Source: an uncultured Ectothiorhodospiraceae bacterium
Lineage (GTDB): Bacteria > Pseudomonadota > Gammaproteobacteria > Nitrococcales > Nitrococcaceae
NCBI GenBank assembly: GCA_913056385.1
Contig: CAJXND010000002.1
Location: 1 to 47,107 of the forward strand
DNA: 47,107 bases
Direction: 5' to 3'
The notes below the pieces were generated by a model, which saw only the letters and a program-made list of their open reading frames with translations, searched no databases and was not told where the DNA came from. Of the stretch, positions 659 to 19,686 are shown piece by piece. Numbering within the stretch: position 1 is the stretch's first letter; each line of letters starts with the position of its first letter. A program made the position numbers and the translations under genes.

Positions 659-1018
659 TGGTGGAGACGGCGGGAATCGAACCCGCGTCCGAAGAACCTC
701 CACACCAGGGTCTACATGCTTAGCGCCGTCTTTATTTTTAGTGGCGTCCTACCCAACGGCCAGGGTATGGAAACCACGATCCCGAATGATGTTTCGCCTC
801 GCCAGTCCGGGCTCCCCGCGGGGCTAGCCTGTGTAATATGCCTGTCCGACACCCAACCACAGGCGATCAAGTGTGGACAGCTCACGGGTTTTTAGGCCGC
901 GAGTGCGTAGTTGTCGTCGTTGGCAACTATCTTTTTTGTCACATTATTTACGAGGTTGAGTGACGTCCTCGGCATGCACCTGGAGTTTCGCGACCTCCGT
1001 CGAAGCCATGTCGTCCCC
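659..1018 (-). ncRNA. ssrA: Transfer-messenger RNA (tmRNA)
   Basis: tmRNA rescues ribosomes stalled on broken mRNAs and adds a degradation tag. The mature 5' end reads GGGGACG and pairs over 7 bases (one G-U) with CGTCTCC just before the ACCA end, forming the tRNA-like acceptor stem. The T-arm GGTTCGATTCCCGCC lies before the 3' end and the conserved GGCTTCGAC follows the 5' end. The tag frame encodes ANDDNYALAA and stop. Length is about 360 nt, as usual for the one-piece form. smpB lies 80 bases upstream on the same strand and a terminator follows, so the two partners of trans-translation are neighbours. Confidence 0.97.
892..924 (-). other. tmRNA tag reading frame (ANDDNYALAA-stop)
   Basis: This is the resume codon GCC (922-924) followed by codons for N-D-D-N-Y-A-L-A-A and a TAA stop (892-894). 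It differs from the Escherichia coli tag (ANDENYALAA) by Glu to Asp at position 4. The terminal ALAA, which is what ClpXP/ClpAP recognise, is kept. Confidence 0.95.
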
Positions 1019-5029: not shown

Positions 5030-5907
5030 GGTGGTGCTCCATCCCCCCAATGCAGCTTCGCTCGCAGAATATCGAAGTAGCGGTGGCCGGGTGGGTGCAC
5101 AAGTCGCAGTTTGTGCGGCGATGCAACGATCTCGAGCCGTCCGTCGGCGGCGAGGGTCAGGTCGCTCTGACTGTCGCAGCTGACGTGAACCTGCTCGATG
5201 GAGTCGGGTTGAACCCGGACCTCGATGCGGCTGTTCGCGCTGATCACCAGGGGCCGGTTGCTGAGGGTGTGTGGAGAGATGGGCACCATGGCCACGGCGT
5301 TGATGCCCGGATGCATGATCGGGCCGCCCCCGGACAGGGCATAGGCGGTGGAGCCGGTGGGGGTGCTGACGATCAGTCCATCCGAGCGATGACGGTTGCA
5401 GGGCTCGCCGTCGATCCAGGTCTCGAACTCGATCATGCGCGAGGTGTTCCAGCGCTGCAGCACCACCTCGTTCAGCGCAGGGGAGCTGGCCATGATCCGG
5501 CCTCCTTCGAGCACGCGGGCCTCCAGCATGAGGCGCTGGTCGAGCTGCATGTCGCCGTCAACCACGCAGGCGATTTCATCGAACCGATCCGGCGAGACGT
5601 CGACCAGGAAACCGAGCCTTCCGCGATTGACGCCCAGAACCGGGACGCCATGCGGCGCGACGATCTTGGCGGCGTGCAGCAGTGTGCCGTCGCCGCCGAC
5701 CACGATCAGCAGATCGATAAGCCCGGCAAGGGACGCCAGGTTGTCGATGTCGCGGCCGTCGCCCGGCTCGGTGGCCCCGCCCATCGCCCTGTCGAGACAG
5801 ACATCGAGTCCATGGGCCTCGAGGCGCTCGATGAGCTTGCGAATGGTATCGATGACCGCGGTATCGTTCGGTTTGCCGGTTATCGCTATGCGTTGGAACG
5901 CTGGCAT
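5023..5907 (-). CDS. nadK: NAD kinase (ATP-NAD kinase)
   Basis: Makes NADP from NAD and ATP (or polyphosphate). It has the GGDGT motif (VVGGDGTLLHAA) with its catalytic Asp, the NE/(N)EVVL block (ALNEVVLQRW), DGLIVSTPTGSTAYALSGGG and HTLSNRPLVI. The start at 5907 (MPAFQRIAITGK) has a GAGGGGGG ribosome site 3-4 bases upstream and gives 294 residues, the family size; an ATG at 5934 is in frame but less likely. It is divergent from hrcA and overlaps recN, a common pairing in gammaproteobacteria. Confidence 0.96.
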   Translation of the reverse strand: MPAFQRIAITGKPNDTAVIDTIRKLIERLEAHGLDVCLDRAMGGATEPGDGRDIDNLASLAGLIDLLIVVGGDGTLLHAAKIVAPHGVPVLGVNRGRLGFLVDVSPDRFDEIACVVDGDMQLDQRLMLEARVLEGGRIMASSPALNEVVLQRWNTSRMIEFETWIDGEPCNRHRSDGLIVSTPTGSTAYALSGGGPIMHPGINAVAMVPISPHTLSNRPLVISANSRIEVRVQPDSIEQVHVSCDSQSDLTLAADGRLEIVASPHKLRLVHPPGHRYFDILRAKLHWGDGAPPC

Positions 5908-5954
5908 GCACCCCCCTCGCCGATGCATGGACAACTTAGCATGGCGTCCGCAAA

Positions 5955-5983
5955 TTGACAGCCATGCGGGGCGTTGATAGCTT
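5955..5983 (+). promoter_or_regulatory. Candidate sigma-70 promoter of hrcA
   Basis: A perfect -35 TTGACA (5955-5960), a 17-base spacer, then TAGCTT (5978-5983, 3/6). Transcription would begin near 5990, inside the CIRCE element. That is the usual geometry for HrcA repression. Confidence 0.5.
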
Positions 5984-5987
5984 CGCC

Positions 5988-6012
5988 TGGCACTCTAAGT
6001 CAGAGAGTGCCA
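5988..6012 (+). promoter_or_regulatory. CIRCE operator (HrcA binding site)
   Basis: TGGCACTC (5988-5995), nine bases, GAGTGCCA (6005-6012): a perfect 8-bp inverted repeat matching the CIRCE consensus core GCACTC-N9-GAGTGC. It sits 17 bases before the hrcA start, just upstream of the GGAGG ribosome site. HrcA bound here would repress its own operon; heat-titrated GroEL would relieve this. Confidence 0.95.
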
Positions 6013-6029
6013 ACTCCCACGGAGGCCTC

Positions 6030-7085
6030 ATGGTTCACCGACACGGCGATGAACCGCTTACAGAGCGTGCACGGCATCTGCTGAAAATGCTGGTGCATCG
6101 TTACATCCGCGATGGCCAGCCGGTGGGATCCCGGGCGCTGACGCGGGATGGTGGCCTCGACTTGAGCGCGGCGTCCATCCGCAATGTCATGGCCGACCTG
6201 GAGGAGGCGGGATATATCCAGTCGCCGCACACATCCGCCGGGCGGATACCAACGGACCGGGGCTATCGTTTTTTCGTCGACTCCCTGCTCAGCGTCCGAC
6301 GCGAGAGCGGGCTCGATGCCGATAATCTGCGAATCCGCCTTGATGCGGGCCGTGATACCGATTCACTGGTGGATTCGGCGTCCAATCTTCTGTCCGGGCT
6401 GACGCATCTGGCCGGCGTGGTGACGCTGCCACGGCGGGACTACGGCTCCATTCGGCATATCGAGTTCCTGCCACTGTCGGAGCGGCGGATCCTGGCCATC
6501 GTCGTGCTGAACGACTCCGAGGTGCAGAACCGCGTCATCGAGACGGATCGTCCGTACAGCCCGGCCGAGCTCCAGCAGGTCTCGAACTATCTGTCCCTGG
6601 AGTTTGCGGGCAAGAGCGTCAGTAATGTCCGGCGCGGGCTGCTGGAGGCCATGCAGGCCGATCAGCAGCATGTGAACAGCCTCATGACCTCGGCGATTGC
6701 GGTGGCTCGCGAGTTGTTCGCCGATAACGGCGGTAAGGACGATGACTTCGTGATCGCGGGCGAGACCAACCTCATGACCTTCGCTGAGCTGTCCAGCGTG
6801 GAGAAGCTCAAGGAGCTTTTCGAGGCGTTCGGGCGCAAGCGCGACATACTGCATCTGCTCGACCGCTGCCTCTCGGCCGATGGCGTGCAGATTTTCATCG
6901 GCCAGGAATCCGGCTATCGGGCCTTCGATGGTGTCAGCCTCGTGACCTCCACCTATCAGAGCGATGATCAGGTCCTTGGCGTTCTCGGCGTCATTGGCCC
7001 CACCCGGATGGAATATGACCGGGTAATCCCCATCGTCGATGTCACCGCTCGGCTCCTGGGCCATGCCTTGAAACCTGATCATTGA
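6030..7085 (+). CDS. hrcA: Heat-inducible transcription repressor HrcA
   Basis: Represses chaperone operons by binding CIRCE. The ATG at 6030 has GGAGG four bases upstream and follows the operator; more upstream in-frame starts would place CIRCE inside the gene. The protein is 351 residues. The N-terminal winged helix (ERARHLLKMLVHRYIRDGQP, GGLDLSAASIRNVMADLEE, YIQSPHTSAGRIPTDRGYRF) is typical; the GAF-like middle and C-terminal half (VLGVIGPTRMEYDRVIPIVD) also match. It is first gene of hrcA-grpE-dnaK-dnaJ. Its last 7 codons contain a sigma-32 promoter for the next genes. Confidence 0.97.
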   Translation: MVHRHGDEPLTERARHLLKMLVHRYIRDGQPVGSRALTRDGGLDLSAASIRNVMADLEEAGYIQSPHTSAGRIPTDRGYRFFVDSLLSVRRESGLDADNLRIRLDAGRDTDSLVDSASNLLSGLTHLAGVVTLPRRDYGSIRHIEFLPLSERRILAIVVLNDSEVQNRVIETDRPYSPAELQQVSNYLSLEFAGKSVSNVRRGLLEAMQADQQHVNSLMTSAIAVARELFADNGGKDDDFVIAGETNLMTFAELSSVEKLKELFEAFGRKRDILHLLDRCLSADGVQIFIGQESGYRAFDGVSLVTSTYQSDDQVLGVLGVIGPTRMEYDRVIPIVDVTARLLGHALKPDH

Positions 7086-7094
7086 TCCCCATTT
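7067..7094 (+). promoter_or_regulatory. Sigma-32 (RpoH) heat-shock promoter
   Basis: CTTGAAA (7067-7073), 13 bases, CCCCATTT (7087-7094). This matches the E. coli RpoH consensus CTTGAAA-N11-16-CCCCATnT at every defined position. It overlaps the final codons and stop of hrcA and points at grpE, whose start is about 60 bases beyond the predicted transcription start. It would drive grpE-dnaK-dnaJ without hrcA. Confidence 0.9.
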
Positions 7095-7160
7095 CTACCG
7101 ATAAGCGCGCGCCGCCCACAGGGGGGCGGTCAGCCGGATGCCGGAACAGCGGAGCAAGCA

Positions 7161-7760
7161 ATGAGCGGAGAAGATAAACGAGAGACCCCAATCGGGGAGT
7201 CCGGGCAAGTGGAGAACGGAGCAGAGCCATCCGGTACCGGGCCCGATGGCCCGGTGGAAATGCCGGAGGGCGAGGATCTGCAGGCCGCACTGCGTGAGGC
7301 AGAGGCCCGTGCCGAGGAGAACTGGAGTCAGTTCCTGCGCGCCCGGGCGGAAATGGAAAACCTGCGTCGGCGGGCGGAAAAGGATGTGGCGGCTGCCCGT
7401 CAACAGTCCCTGGAAAAGCTCGCCAGCGAATTGCTCGGCGTCAAGGACAGCCTGGAAATGGGACTGCAGGCCGCGAACGAGGATGGCGCAGACGTCGCCA
7501 AGCTCGCCGAGGGCTCGGAGCTGACACTGCGCATGTTCAACCAGGCGCTGGAGAAGTTCAGCATCGAGGAGCTCAATCCCGAGGGTCAGCGCTTCGATCC
7601 GGAGGCCCATGAGGCGATGGCCGCCCAGGAGGCCACGGATGTTGAGCCCAACACGGTGATCAACGTCGTGCAGAAAGGCTATCGCCTCGGCGACCGGCTG
7701 CTGCGACCGGCCATGGTAATTGTCGCGAAGGCACCCTCCGGTTCCGGGGCGGGGTCTTGA
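7161..7760 (+). CDS. grpE: Nucleotide exchange factor GrpE
   Basis: Releases ADP from DnaK. 199 residues: an acidic, disordered N-terminus, a long helix (ENWSQFLRARAEMENLRRRAEKDVAAARQ, shown here only by its ends ENWSQFL and EKDV) and the C-terminal beta domain with FDPEAHEAMAAQE, TVINVVQKGYRLGDRLLRPA and VIVAK, the GrpE signature. It sits 75 bases after hrcA, downstream of the sigma-32 promoter, and 64 bases before dnaK. Confidence 0.96.
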   Translation: MSGEDKRETPIGESGQVENGAEPSGTGPDGPVEMPEGEDLQAALREAEARAEENWSQFLRARAEMENLRRRAEKDVAAARQQSLEKLASELLGVKDSLEMGLQAANEDGADVAKLAEGSELTLRMFNQALEKFSIEELNPEGQRFDPEAHEAMAAQEATDVEPNTVINVVQKGYRLGDRLLRPAMVIVAKAPSGSGAGS

Positions 7761-7824
7761 AAAAAACCGTTGGCGCCTAAATCTCACCCAATGAACCGAA
7801 TTCGAAATCGAGGAGCATTCAATA

Positions 7825-9753
7825 ATGGGCAAGATCATCGGAATCGACCTGGGAACAACCAATTCCTGCGTCGCGGTGATGGAAGGGGGATCTTCCCGGG
7901 TTATCGAAAACGCCGAGGGTGATCGCACAACACCTTCCACCGTCGCATTCACCGAGGACGGCGAGGTCCTCGTCGGTGCCGCGGCCAAGCGGCAGGCGGT
8001 GACCAACCCCGAGAACACGCTGCACGCGATCAAGCGGCTGATCGGTCGAAAGTTCGAGGAGGACGTCGTCCAGCGTGATGTCCGTGAGATGCCCTACAGC
8101 ATCGTCAAGGCGGACAACGGCGATGCCTGGGTGGAGGTGCGCGACAAGAAGATGGCGCCGCCGGAGATCTCCGCGCGCGTGCTCCAGAAAATGAAGAGCA
8201 CCGCGGAAGATTACCTCGGCGAGGAGGTCACCGAGGCGGTGATCACCGTCCCGGCCTACTTCAATGATTCCCAGCGTCAGGCCACCAAGGACGCGGGCCG
8301 TATCGCCGGTCTCGAGGTCAAGCGCATCATCAACGAGCCCACTGCCGCGGCGCTGGCCTATGGCCTCGACAAGAAGGGCGGGGATCGCAAGATCGCCGTC
8401 TACGACCTCGGTGGCGGGACGTTCGACGTCTCCATCATCGAAATCGCCGAGGTCGAGGGCGAGCATCAGTTCGAGGTGCTGTCGACCAACGGTGACACGT
8501 TCCTGGGCGGTGAGGATTTCGATCGCGCGGTGATCGACTATCTCGTGGCCGAGTTCAAGAAGGACCAGGGGATCGACATCTCCTCGGACCGGCTGGCTCT
8601 GCAGCGGCTCAAGGAAGCGGCGGAGAAGGCCAAGATCGAGCTTTCATCGGCCCAGCAGACCGAGGTGAACCTGCCCTATATCACCGCCGATCAGACCGGG
8701 CCCAAACACCTCAATCTCAAGCTGACCCGTGCCAAGCTCGAAAGCCTGGTGGAAGGCCTGGTGCAGCGCACGATCAAGCCCTGCGAGGTGGCGCTCAAGG
8801 ATGCCGGCCTCAAGGCGGGCGACGTGGACGAGGTCATCCTGGTGGGGGGGCAGACCCGCACGCCCAAGGTCCAGGAGGCGGTCAAGGCGTTCTTCGGCAA
8901 GGAGCCGCGCCGCGACGTCAATCCGGACGAGGCCGTCGCCATCGGTGCGGCGATCCAGGGCGGTGTGCTGGGTGGCGACGTCAAGGATGTCCTGCTGCTC
9001 GACGTCACGCCACTCTCGCTCGGCATCGAGACCCTCGGTGGTGTCATGACCAAGCTCATCGAGAAGAATACGACCATCCCGACCAAGGCCAACCAGGTGT
9101 TCTCCACCGCCGAGGACAACCAGAGCGCGGTCACCGTTCACGTCCTGCAGGGCGAGCGCGAAATGGCCTCGGATAACAAGTCGCTCGGCAAATTCGATCT
9201 CTCCGACATTCCGCCGGCGCCCCGCGGCGTGCCGCAGATCGAGGTGACCTTCGATATCGACGCCAACGGCATCCTGCATGTGACAGCCAAGGACAAGGGC
9301 ACGGGCAAGGAGCAGTCGATCCAGATCCGCGCCTCCAGCGGGCTCTCGGATGACGAAATCGAGCGCATGGTCGAGGACGCCGAGTCGCACGCCGAGGAGG
9401 ACCGCAAGGCCCGCGAACTGGTCGAGGCCCGCAATCAGGCCGACAACCTGATCCACGCCGCGCGCAAGAGCCTGGAGGAAGTGGGCGACAAGGCCTCCGA
9501 TGACGAGAAGAAGGCGGTGGAAGACGCGATCGCCGATCTTGAAGAGGCCATGAAGGGCAGCGACAAGTCGGCCATCGAGTCGAAGACCGAAGCCCTGGCA
9601 ACGGCCTCCGGCAAACTGGCGGAGAAGATCTATCAGGACGCCGAGGCCGGCGGGGCGCCTGGCGAGGCGGGCGCCGAGAGCGGTGCCGGGTCGAGTCAGG
9701 AAGACGTGGTCGACGCCGAGTTCGAGGAAGTCAAGGACGACGAGAAGAAGTAA
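7825..9753 (+). CDS. dnaK: Chaperone protein DnaK (Hsp70)
   Basis: ATP-dependent chaperone, 642 residues (E. coli 638). The nucleotide-binding half shows [14 protein letters not shown] at the N-terminus, then [31 protein letters not shown] and [14 protein letters not shown]. The substrate domain and helical lid follow ([37 protein letters not shown]). The end is Gly/Ala/Ser-rich, then acidic ([15 protein letters not shown]), close to the E. coli tail. A GAGGAG ribosome site lies 9-10 bases before the start. It works with GrpE and DnaJ, encoded on either side. Confidence 0.98.
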
Positions 9754-9784
9754 CGGCGTTTCGCGGAACAGTCCTTTCGCCGGC

Positions 9785-9838
9785 AAGGCGCAGTGCATCG
9801 AATGGCCCGGTCCACCGGGCTTTCGATGCCTGCGCCTT
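9785..9838 (+). promoter_or_regulatory. Long hairpin between dnaK and dnaJ
   Basis: The inverted repeat is AAGGCGCAG (9785-9793) with CTGCGCCTT (9830-9838), GCATCGAA (9795-9802) with TTCGATGC (9822-9829), and GCCCGG (9805-9810) with CCGGGC (9815-9820), around a TCCA loop. That is 23 base pairs broken only by a one-base bulge and a small internal loop. No T-run follows, so it is more likely an mRNA-processing or stability element, or a partial terminator, setting DnaJ below DnaK. Confidence 0.8.
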
Positions 9839-9892
9839 TGCTGTTGACGCCGGGGTGGTTACCCTGCAGAGAGAACAGTCAGAACGGGCACC

Positions 9893-11032
9893 ATGGCAAA
9901 ACGTGACTACTACGAAATCCTCGGGGTTTCCCAGAACGCCTCAGAGGGTGATCTGAAAAAGGCGTATCGGCGCCTGGCGATGAAATACCACCCGGACCGC
10001 AACCCGGGTGACAGCGATGCAGAACAGCGTTTCAAGGAGGCCAAGGAGGCCTATGAGGTCCTCAGTGATCCCCAGAAGCGCTCGGCCTACGACCAGTTCG
10101 GTCATGCTGGTGTCGATCCCAGCGCCGGCGGCGGGGGCAGCGGCGGATTTGGCCGCGGGAGCGCCGATTTCGCGGATATCTTCTCCGATGTGTTCGGCGA
10201 CATATTCGGCGGTGGCGGTCGAGGCGGCGCGCGGGCGTTCCGGGGCGCCGATCTGCGCTATCGCATGGAGATCACACTGGAGGAAGCGGTTCACGGTCTC
10301 GAGCGCGAGATCCGGATTCCGACGCAGGTGCGCTGTGATGCCTGCGAGGGTTCCGGTGCTGCTCCCGGTAGCGAACCGCAGGCCTGCCCGACCTGTAATG
10401 GCCACGGCGACGTGCGGGTCCAGCAGGGCTTTTTCTCGATCCAGCAGACCTGCCCGCGCTGCAGTGGGACCGGGCAGATCGTCAGCGATCCGTGTCGGCA
10501 GTGTGGCGGCAGCGGGACCGTGCCCGACTATAAGACGCTCAATGTCCGGGTGCCGGCGGGTGTCGATACCGGGGACCGGATCCGGCTGAGCGGCGAGGGC
10601 GAGCCCGGTGAGCAGGGCGGGCCACCGGGTGATCTTTATGTGGAGATGGTGGTCAAGCCCCATCCGATCTTTACCCGAGAGGGCGCCGACCTGCGCTGTG
10701 ATATACCGCTCAGTGTGACCACCGCGGCCCTCGGCGGTGAGCTCGAGGTACCCACGCTGGACGGCCGGGTCACCCTGCGGGTTCCTGCGGGTACACAGTC
10801 CGGGAAGGTTTTCCGGGTCCGCGGCAAGGGCGTCAAGCCGGTACGCGGCGGCACCTCGGGCGATCTGTTGTGCCGTGTGGCGATGGAGACCCCCGTCAAC
10901 CTGACCGCTCGCCAGAAAGAGTTGCTCGAGGAGCTCGCCGAAACCCTCGAGAAGGGGGGCGAGCACCATAACCCCCGCGGCAGCTCCTGGCTGGACTCGG
11001 TGAAGTCGTTCTTCGAAGGGATGAAATTCTGA
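9893..11032 (+). CDS. dnaJ: Chaperone protein DnaJ (Hsp40)
   Basis: Delivers substrates to DnaK and stimulates its ATPase. 379 residues. The J domain has HPD at 33-35 ([10 protein letters not shown]), followed by a Gly/Phe-rich linker ([13 protein letters not shown]). The zinc domain has four CxxCxGxG repeats ([32 protein letters not shown]) and the C-terminal substrate domain follows. Type I DnaJ is complete. The stop is one base from the dapB start, so dapB may be read from the heat-shock operon. Confidence 0.97.
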
Positions 11033-11033
11033 C

Positions 11034-11852
11034 ATGACCGCCGTTGCCATTCTGGGCGCCGCCGGGCGCATGGGCCGAACGCTGATCGAACGGGTCGCGG
11101 CGGCGGAGGATCTGAGGCTGGTCGCGGCGACGGTCCGCGCCGACAGCGAGTGGATCGGACGTGATGCCGGTGACATCGCCGGCTGTGGGTGCCTGGACGT
11201 GGCCCTCACCGATGCGCCCGGTGATGCAGCGGCTGCTGCCGCGGTGGTCGTTGACTTCACGCTGCCGGATGCGCTCGAGGCGAATCTGGCGGCGGCGACG
11301 GCGGCGGGAACGCCGGTCGTGATCGGCACCACCGGGGTGGATGCGGCTGGAGAGAAGGCCATCCGGCGTGCCTCCGCCCAGATCCCGATTGTCTATGCCG
11401 CCAATTACAGCAGTGGCGTCACCCTGTTGCGCCGGCTGGTGCAGACGGCCGCAGCGGCACTTGGCGACGATTACGATGTCGAAATCATGGAGGCCCACCA
11501 TCGCGACAAGCGTGATGCGCCGTCGGGTACGGCCTGGGCGCTGGGCGAGTCGGTGGCCCGGGGCCGCGGGGTGCGGCTCGAGGATTACGCCATCCAGGCG
11601 CGCGACGGCATTGTCGGGGAGCGCCCCGCCGGCGCGATCGGTTTTCAGGCCTTGCGTGGGGGCGATATCGTCGGCGAGCACACCGTGATGCTTGCCGGTG
11701 ACGGTGAGCGGCTGGAGCTCACCCACCGTGCCTCCAGCCGGGCCACGTTTGCGCGCGGGGCGCTGCGCGCCGCGCGCTGGGCGGTCGAACGCCCCGCTGG
11801 GCTCTACGACATGGATGATGTGCTCGGTCTCAATGATCGGGCGCCGGATTGA
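11034..11852 (+). CDS. dapB: 4-hydroxy-tetrahydrodipicolinate reductase
   Basis: NAD(P)H-dependent step of lysine/diaminopimelate synthesis. 272 residues. The N-terminal Rossmann motif is GAAGRMGRTL (8-17), followed by DFTLPDA, GTTG and AANYSSGVT, then the substrate loop EAHHRDKRDAPSGTA with catalytic His155/156 and Lys159. It begins one base after dnaJ. The other dap genes of the pathway (dapC, dapD, dapE) are on the opposite strand just downstream. Confidence 0.97.
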   Translation: MTAVAILGAAGRMGRTLIERVAAAEDLRLVAATVRADSEWIGRDAGDIAGCGCLDVALTDAPGDAAAAAAVVVDFTLPDALEANLAAATAAGTPVVIGTTGVDAAGEKAIRRASAQIPIVYAANYSSGVTLLRRLVQTAAAALGDDYDVEIMEAHHRDKRDAPSGTAWALGESVARGRGVRLEDYAIQARDGIVGERPAGAIGFQALRGGDIVGEHTVMLAGDGERLELTHRASSRATFARGALRAARWAVERPAGLYDMDDVLGLNDRAPD

Positions 11853-19560: not shown

Positions 19561-19599
19561 CGGCGCGCCATTTGGGCAATTCGACAAACCAAAACCACA

Positions 19600-19654
19600 C
19601 ATGCACCGACACAGCTGGCGGGGTGCCCTCGGGGTTGCCAGTTGCGGGTGCATG
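19600..19654 (+). promoter_or_regulatory. Structured rpsB leader (likely S2 autoregulatory element)
   Basis: The leader folds into a long hairpin: CATGCACC (19600-19607) with GGTGCATG (19647-19654) at the base and CTGGC (19615-19619) with GCCAG (19637-19641) above. It ends about 20 bases before the AAAAGGAG ribosome site. S2 is known to repress its own operon through the rpsB leader in gammaproteobacteria; this fold and position fit, but I have not matched it to a covariance model. Confidence 0.6.
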
Positions 19655-19686
19655 GAGGCCTAACCCATACAAAAGGAGTATTCGTC

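Follow-up and report, generated by a model that had tools for sequence, protein, structure and literature searches.

The window analysed here, a 47,107-nucleotide stretch of DNA from an uncultured Ectothiorhodospiraceae bacterium, carries recN, nadK (-) and then hrcA, grpE, dnaK, dnaJ and dapB (+), and the last bases of hrcA run into a sequence with the form of a heat-shock promoter. This raises the question of whether that sequence is a promoter in its own right, from which the chaperone genes could be transcribed without their repressor gene, or whether it only resembles one. Based on a comparison of this locus with its relatives, we conclude that 7067-7094 is very probably a genuine, heat-activated RpoH (sigma-32) promoter for grpE-dnaK(-dnaJ), with a predicted start near 7100 and a transcript that leaves out hrcA.

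A sigma-32-type sequence across the end of hrcA

A preliminary description of this DNA placed a consensus-perfect sigma-32 promoter, CTTGAAA-N13-CCCCATTT, at 7067-7094 on the forward strand and in the last codons of hrcA. The boxes lie at these positions and match the consensus at 14 of 14 bases. The location given for them holds for the -35 box, which begins with the last base of an Ala codon and continues through TTG AAA in a gene end reading GCC TTG AAA CCT GAT CAT TGA, and for most of the spacer, but not for the -10 box, which lies one base past the stop codon (Table 1). The spacing, 13 bases after CTTGAAA or 14 after CTTGAA, falls within the 13-17 bases before the -10 element CCCCATNT in the consensus CTTGAA-N13-17-CCCCATNT given in an excerpt of PMC4263515; an excerpt of PMC6687850 gives the sigma-32 -10 as CCCCATWT.

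The site stands alone in its surroundings. The pattern CTTGAAAN{11,16}CCCCATNT matched the window only at 7067-7094 and matched none of 100 shuffles; with a spacing of N12-15, this was also the sole match in the organism's own genome (1.95 Mb in 86 contigs), with none in a backwards control. When both strands of the window were scored with a threshold of 11, it was the only 14/14 site, all others listed reaching 11/14. The looser pattern TTGAA-N13..15-CCCCAT matched the genome at four places and its backwards version at none: the hrcA-grpE site itself, one 118 bases 5' of the groES match, one 53 bases 5' of a Bax1-I family gene, and one within apparent transporter genes (judged by eye), which we take as chance. 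The site before the Bax1-I family gene, which is presumably YccA-type, has the form TTGAA-N15-CCCCAT (L005, 1501-1526, reverse strand) and likely marks a further RpoH target.

Table 1. Positions of features in the window.
Feature	Position	Strand	Basis or remark
-35 box CTTGAAA	7067-7073	+	sigma-32 promoter; within hrcA codons GCC TTG AAA
-10 box CCCCATTT	7087-7094	+	sigma-32 promoter; start predicted at ~7100
hrcA stop codon TGA	7083-7085	+	inside promoter spacer
hrcA, heat-inducible repressor	6030-7085	+	TIGR00331, 315.7 bits (cut-off 197.2)
grpE, first gene behind promoter	7161-7760	+	NCBIfam GrpE models, two over cut-offs; ORF
dnaK	7825-9753	+	TIGR02350, 985 bits
dnaJ	9893-11032	+	TIGR02349, 447 bits
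CIRCE operator, HrcA binding site	5987-6013	+	pattern match CTGGCACTC-N9-GAGTGCCAA
Probable housekeeping promoter of hrcA	5955-5983	+	TTGACA, 17 bases, TAGCTT; putative
Second, weak sigma-32-type site before dnaK, CTTGAAA-N14-CTAAATCT	7756-7784	+	11/14
tmRNA	659-1018	-	
t44 RNA family match	19578-19664	+	

The -35 box coincides with the only two frozen codons of hrcA

The preliminary description proposed comparing the two boxes with the surrounding codons in relatives, and named loss of the boxes in close relatives as evidence against a promoter. hrcA was found in all 23 genomes of the family, and both boxes are present in every one of them. CTTGAA is constant and the -10 box retains its CCCCA core, whereas both boxes vary in their final bases; the perfect match to the consensus is therefore a property of the window but not the property that is conserved. 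For the codon comparison we used the 22 family genomes with a full hrcA (the partial L030 was left out), which were not selected for having the site. Among the 95 hrcA columns with an invariant residue and at least four codons in play across these genomes, just two use a single codon in every genome, and these are exactly the -35 box codons GCC and TTG. Restricting the test to the genus (13 genomes) gave the same two codons out of 137 columns. The earlier suggestion that the coding sequence is constrained by a promoter is thus borne out at precisely these two codons, and the putative sigma-32 promoter is more conserved than the sequence around it.

The overlap extends across the Gammaproteobacteria

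We then read 191 hrcA 3' ends, 23 from the family, 21 more from the order (hrcA in 39 of 39 genomes searched) and 147 more from the class (hrcA in 174 of 232 genomes, the best 150 of the 174 being read and three of these counted already). grpE follows hrcA in 177 of them, 173 by tblastn and four (L024, L026, L177, L180) set by hand. A site was scored leniently as TTGAA-N13..16-CCCCA with at most one mismatch.

A lenient site was present in 147 of the 177 grpE-adjacent gammaproteobacterial loci, a count that ignores phylogeny, and an exact site in 118. Shuffled sequences gave 3.06 lenient sites per 177 loci, so that chance should account for about 3 of the 147, and 0.14 exact ones; the reverse strands held one lenient and no exact site, and 177 intervals taken within hrcA bodies held none. 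The -35 box lies inside hrcA in 123 loci and in the intergenic region in 24, while 30 have no site. Embedding is universal in the genus (14/14) and the remaining family (9/9), close to universal in the remaining order (19/21), and found in 81 of the remaining 133 loci of the class, next to 24 intergenic sites and 28 loci without one. When each family was represented by a single genome (grpE being adjacent in 85), 70 had a site, embedded in 53 and intergenic in 17, and 15 had none. Sixteen additional loci from Spiribacter, Aquisalimonas, Methylonatrum, Ectothiorhodospiraceae and one Chromatiales (L071-L086), partly on the same contigs as loci already in the survey, were all embedded; the more distant L087-L093 had no site, apparent hits in L087 and L088, and likewise one in L282, not being counted as the comparison was incomplete at the end of the stretch. 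Overlap of the predicted promoter with the end of hrcA is old and widely retained across the Gammaproteobacteria.

The geometry of the site is equally regular. From TTGAA to an exact CCCCA the gap is 14 bases in 86 loci, 15 in 32 and 13 in four, and any other gap from 3 to 40 occurs in at most two loci each. TTGAA lies 15 bases from the hrcA stop in 95 of the 123 embedded loci, 12 bases in 15, and between 1 and 51 bases in the rest. The -10 box falls wholly past the stop in 114 of the 123 embedded loci and wholly within hrcA in five. Among the 30 loci without a site, 13 still hold TTGAA among the final 60 bases of hrcA, and some carry an altered -10 such as CCTTATAT. Three loci counted as site-less (L097, L158, L211) retain CCTTGAAT, with CCTTATAT replacing CCCCATAT; in these, CCTTATAT may be the form that the RpoH -10 box takes in a particular lineage.

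A second junction and the other promoters of the operon

The site at the end of hrcA is one of several candidate inputs. The window has both an hrcA gene and a CIRCE inverted repeat before it, as expected of an HrcA/CIRCE operon, and a slightly looser CIRCE pattern was found 5' of hrcA in 13 of the 13 genus loci shown. The TTGACA of the probable housekeeping promoter is conserved in all 13 genus hrcA upstream regions shown, and its second hexamer varies; this promoter is missed by a consensus scan of 5900-11100 for housekeeping promoters and terminators, which gave nothing over the chance level.

At the next junction, dnaK is preceded by the second sigma-32-type site, in whose -35 box the TGA (7758-7760) is the stop codon of grpE. 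dnaK is visible in 57 of 59 long loci; TTGAA precedes it in 54 and runs across the grpE stop in 31 of the 57. A -10-like box scoring at least 5/7 at gap 14 or 15 is present in 42 of the 57 (shuffles, 0.2), and the gaps vary, gap 12 standing out with nine matches. Because the -10 half in the window reaches just 4/7, below the threshold applied to the relatives, the window is not among these 42 and the second site is less sure in this species.

Two predicted RNA structures were also noted in the operon. The dnaK-dnaJ gap (9754-9892) contains a very stable long predicted hairpin (-71.5 kcal/mol, z -4.5; window only), which may act in attenuation or processing and so lower dnaJ relative to dnaK. 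At 7100-7140, the grpE leader of the window species can fold into a GC-rich hairpin (-23.5 kcal/mol, z just -0.5), as can that of the closest relative (z -2.1); over 118 leaders the median z was -0.19, and we dropped this hairpin as a general feature.

These other inputs feed the alternative that best survives, namely that the promoter at 7067-7094 is real and carries little weight, most grpE-dnaK mRNA coming from the front promoter at CIRCE or from the second sigma-32-type site. The conserved CIRCE and TTGACA of the genus, together with an RpoH-type site before dnaK in many relatives, speak for such an arrangement; against it, selection on the hrcA-grpE site has been strong enough to freeze codons, and 24 loci have an intergenic site in place of the embedded one. 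We consider it unlikely that the site matters so little. Because this alternative is compatible with a genuine RpoH promoter, the probabilities that we assign to the explanations do not sum to one.

The element follows grpE rather than hrcA or its protein

It could also be argued that the C-terminus of HrcA (Ala-Leu-Lys/Asn) is conserved for the sake of the protein, and that the resemblance to a promoter is a by-product. The loci with an intergenic site, in which the -35 box lies outside hrcA, separate the two demands. Ala-Leu is retained at the HrcA tail in 20 of these 24, and the motif is thus partly protein-driven; however, of the 23 intergenic loci in which the Leu codon could be placed, only 7 use TTG there and only 5 have Lys or Asn after it (8 of the full set of 191 could not be placed and do not enter this tally). 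On our reading, the protein preserves Ala-Leu, and the promoter preserves the TTG codon with the Lys/Asn after it. Moreover, a demand of the protein does not account for synonymous choice frozen at GCC TTG alone, for a -10 box that in most embedded loci lies beyond the coding sequence altogether, or for a gap that stays at 14-15 despite a variable distance to the stop. The element is thus independent of the hrcA protein code, the by-product explanation is largely refuted, and we attach almost no probability to it.

The presence of the element varies with the gene that follows hrcA. Where grpE is not next to hrcA, a site was found in only 3 of 14 loci, one of them directly 5' of dnaK (Fisher p 3e-6 for adjacent versus non-adjacent, ignoring descent); these 14 include L182, which is truncated, L202, which possibly has a divergent grpE, and L070, in which dnaK directly follows hrcA. 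In other classes of the phylum, sampled at one genome per family, 20 genomes gave one lenient match, which lies deeper within hrcA; a grpE match fell within the stretch in 16 of the 20.

Conversely, the element is found in gammaproteobacteria that lack hrcA. grpE was found in 35 of 37 such genomes searched, and 30 loci were read; a lenient site precedes grpE in 19 of the 30 and an exact one in 12 (shuffles, 0.98 and 0.03), and 11 have no site. A divergent nadK lies nearby in 12 of the 30, 8 of which also have the site, and in E. coli K-12 nadK and grpE are likewise divergent, without an intervening hrcA. No hrcA match, and thus no relic of the gene, was found 5' of grpE in the 30 loci. Given that a site precedes grpE in 19 of these 30 and in E. 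coli K-12, the element serves grpE, and it goes with grpE and not with hrcA.

RpoH and its other candidate promoters

The organism's own genome encodes an RpoH (TIGR02392, 400 bits, over the cut-off) containing QRKLFFNLR, which we take to be the RpoH signature box, and it has 12/14 sigma-32-type sites at both groES and clpB. Like boxes recur at these two heat-shock genes in most genus loci. For groES, 13 loci were found and 10 of the 12 readable ones score at least 11/14, with CTTGAAT and a C-rich box 115-122 bases 5' of the match (the count omits L225, whose placement near a contig end was wrong). For clpB, all 8 loci score at least 12/14, with CCCCATAT (CCCAATAT in one) and a TTGAAA-like -35. 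No RpoH-type promoter was found at hslV in 13 genus loci, which, like the site-less loci of the grpE-adjacent and hrcA-less sets, counts against the promoter. E. coli K-12 has CTTGAAA-N13-CCCCATAA 5' of grpE, and its sites upstream of dnaK, groS and grpE, which are presumably the characterised promoters, have the same form as the window site.

That the boxes are read by another sigma factor or regulator in place of RpoH is scarcely credible. Two observations speak for it: a second sigma-like protein weakly matches the RpoH model (L002, 140 bits, below the cut-off; probably the housekeeping sigma factor), and genomes in which RpoH is matched only weakly show no clear loss of the site, some retaining it (exact in 3 of 8 versus 75 of 125, p 0.27). 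Against it, boxes and spacing resemble those at groES and clpB in the genus and at dnaK, groS and grpE in E. coli. To our knowledge, CCCCAT is not a housekeeping -10.

Discussion

Our data argue for an operon with two inputs. At the front, HrcA bound to CIRCE would repress a promoter that gives hrcA and a basal level of chaperones. Upon heat or protein-folding stress, RpoH would start transcription at ~7100, just past the hrcA stop, and this internal promoter would yield a grpE-dnaK(-dnaJ) mRNA without hrcA, raising the chaperones and not their repressor. We infer that sparing the repressor is the purpose of this arrangement. The bypass of hrcA and of CIRCE that the preliminary description expected follows from the position of the promoter.

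The promoter at 7067-7094 is ordinary in kind, though comparison supports it unusually well; what makes it of interest is the class-wide overlap and the frozen codons. We put at about even a broader proposal, drawn from the comparison of junctions: across the class, selection on the promoter would have shaped part of the HrcA protein, its -35 box fixing TTG as the Leu codon near the C-terminus as well as the Lys/Asn that comes next; the -35 box of the next junction would make use of the grpE stop; and the grpE element would outlive the loss of hrcA from the nadK-hrcA-grpE junction, as in E. coli. The locus offers a clean, countable example of regulatory DNA constraining codons and one residue of a protein, and it suggests a route by which many gammaproteobacteria may make more DnaK upon heat shock with the HrcA of the same operon not raised. 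It also calls for caution, in that conserved residues at the end of a gene may reflect a promoter signal rather than protein function.

The heat-shock regulons of HrcA and sigma-32 in beta-, gamma- and epsilonproteobacteria were reportedly, judging by the title, the subject of work by Permina and Gelfand in 2003. Among titles and abstract openings in the open literature, a scope outside which most subscription papers fall, we found no RpoH promoter within hrcA; we make no claim that ours is its first description. For other proteobacteria, the accessible part of PMC545781 describes sigma-32 candidates 5' of dnaK or of grpE-dnaK, with no mention there of an overlap with hrcA.

The window site resembles the known sigma-32 promoters of gammaproteobacteria in its boxes, its spacing, the genes served and the presence of RpoH in the genome; it differs from them in having its -35 box in the codons of an upstream repressor gene and a stop codon in its spacer. 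With respect to gene order, the hrcA-grpE-dnaK-dnaJ operon of Geobacter, with CIRCE before hrcA (PMC545781, in part), and that of Xanthomonas campestris (PMC11764788, in part) are the same as in the window. Compared with such HrcA/CIRCE operons, the window adds a predicted internal RpoH promoter, a second input that omits hrcA.
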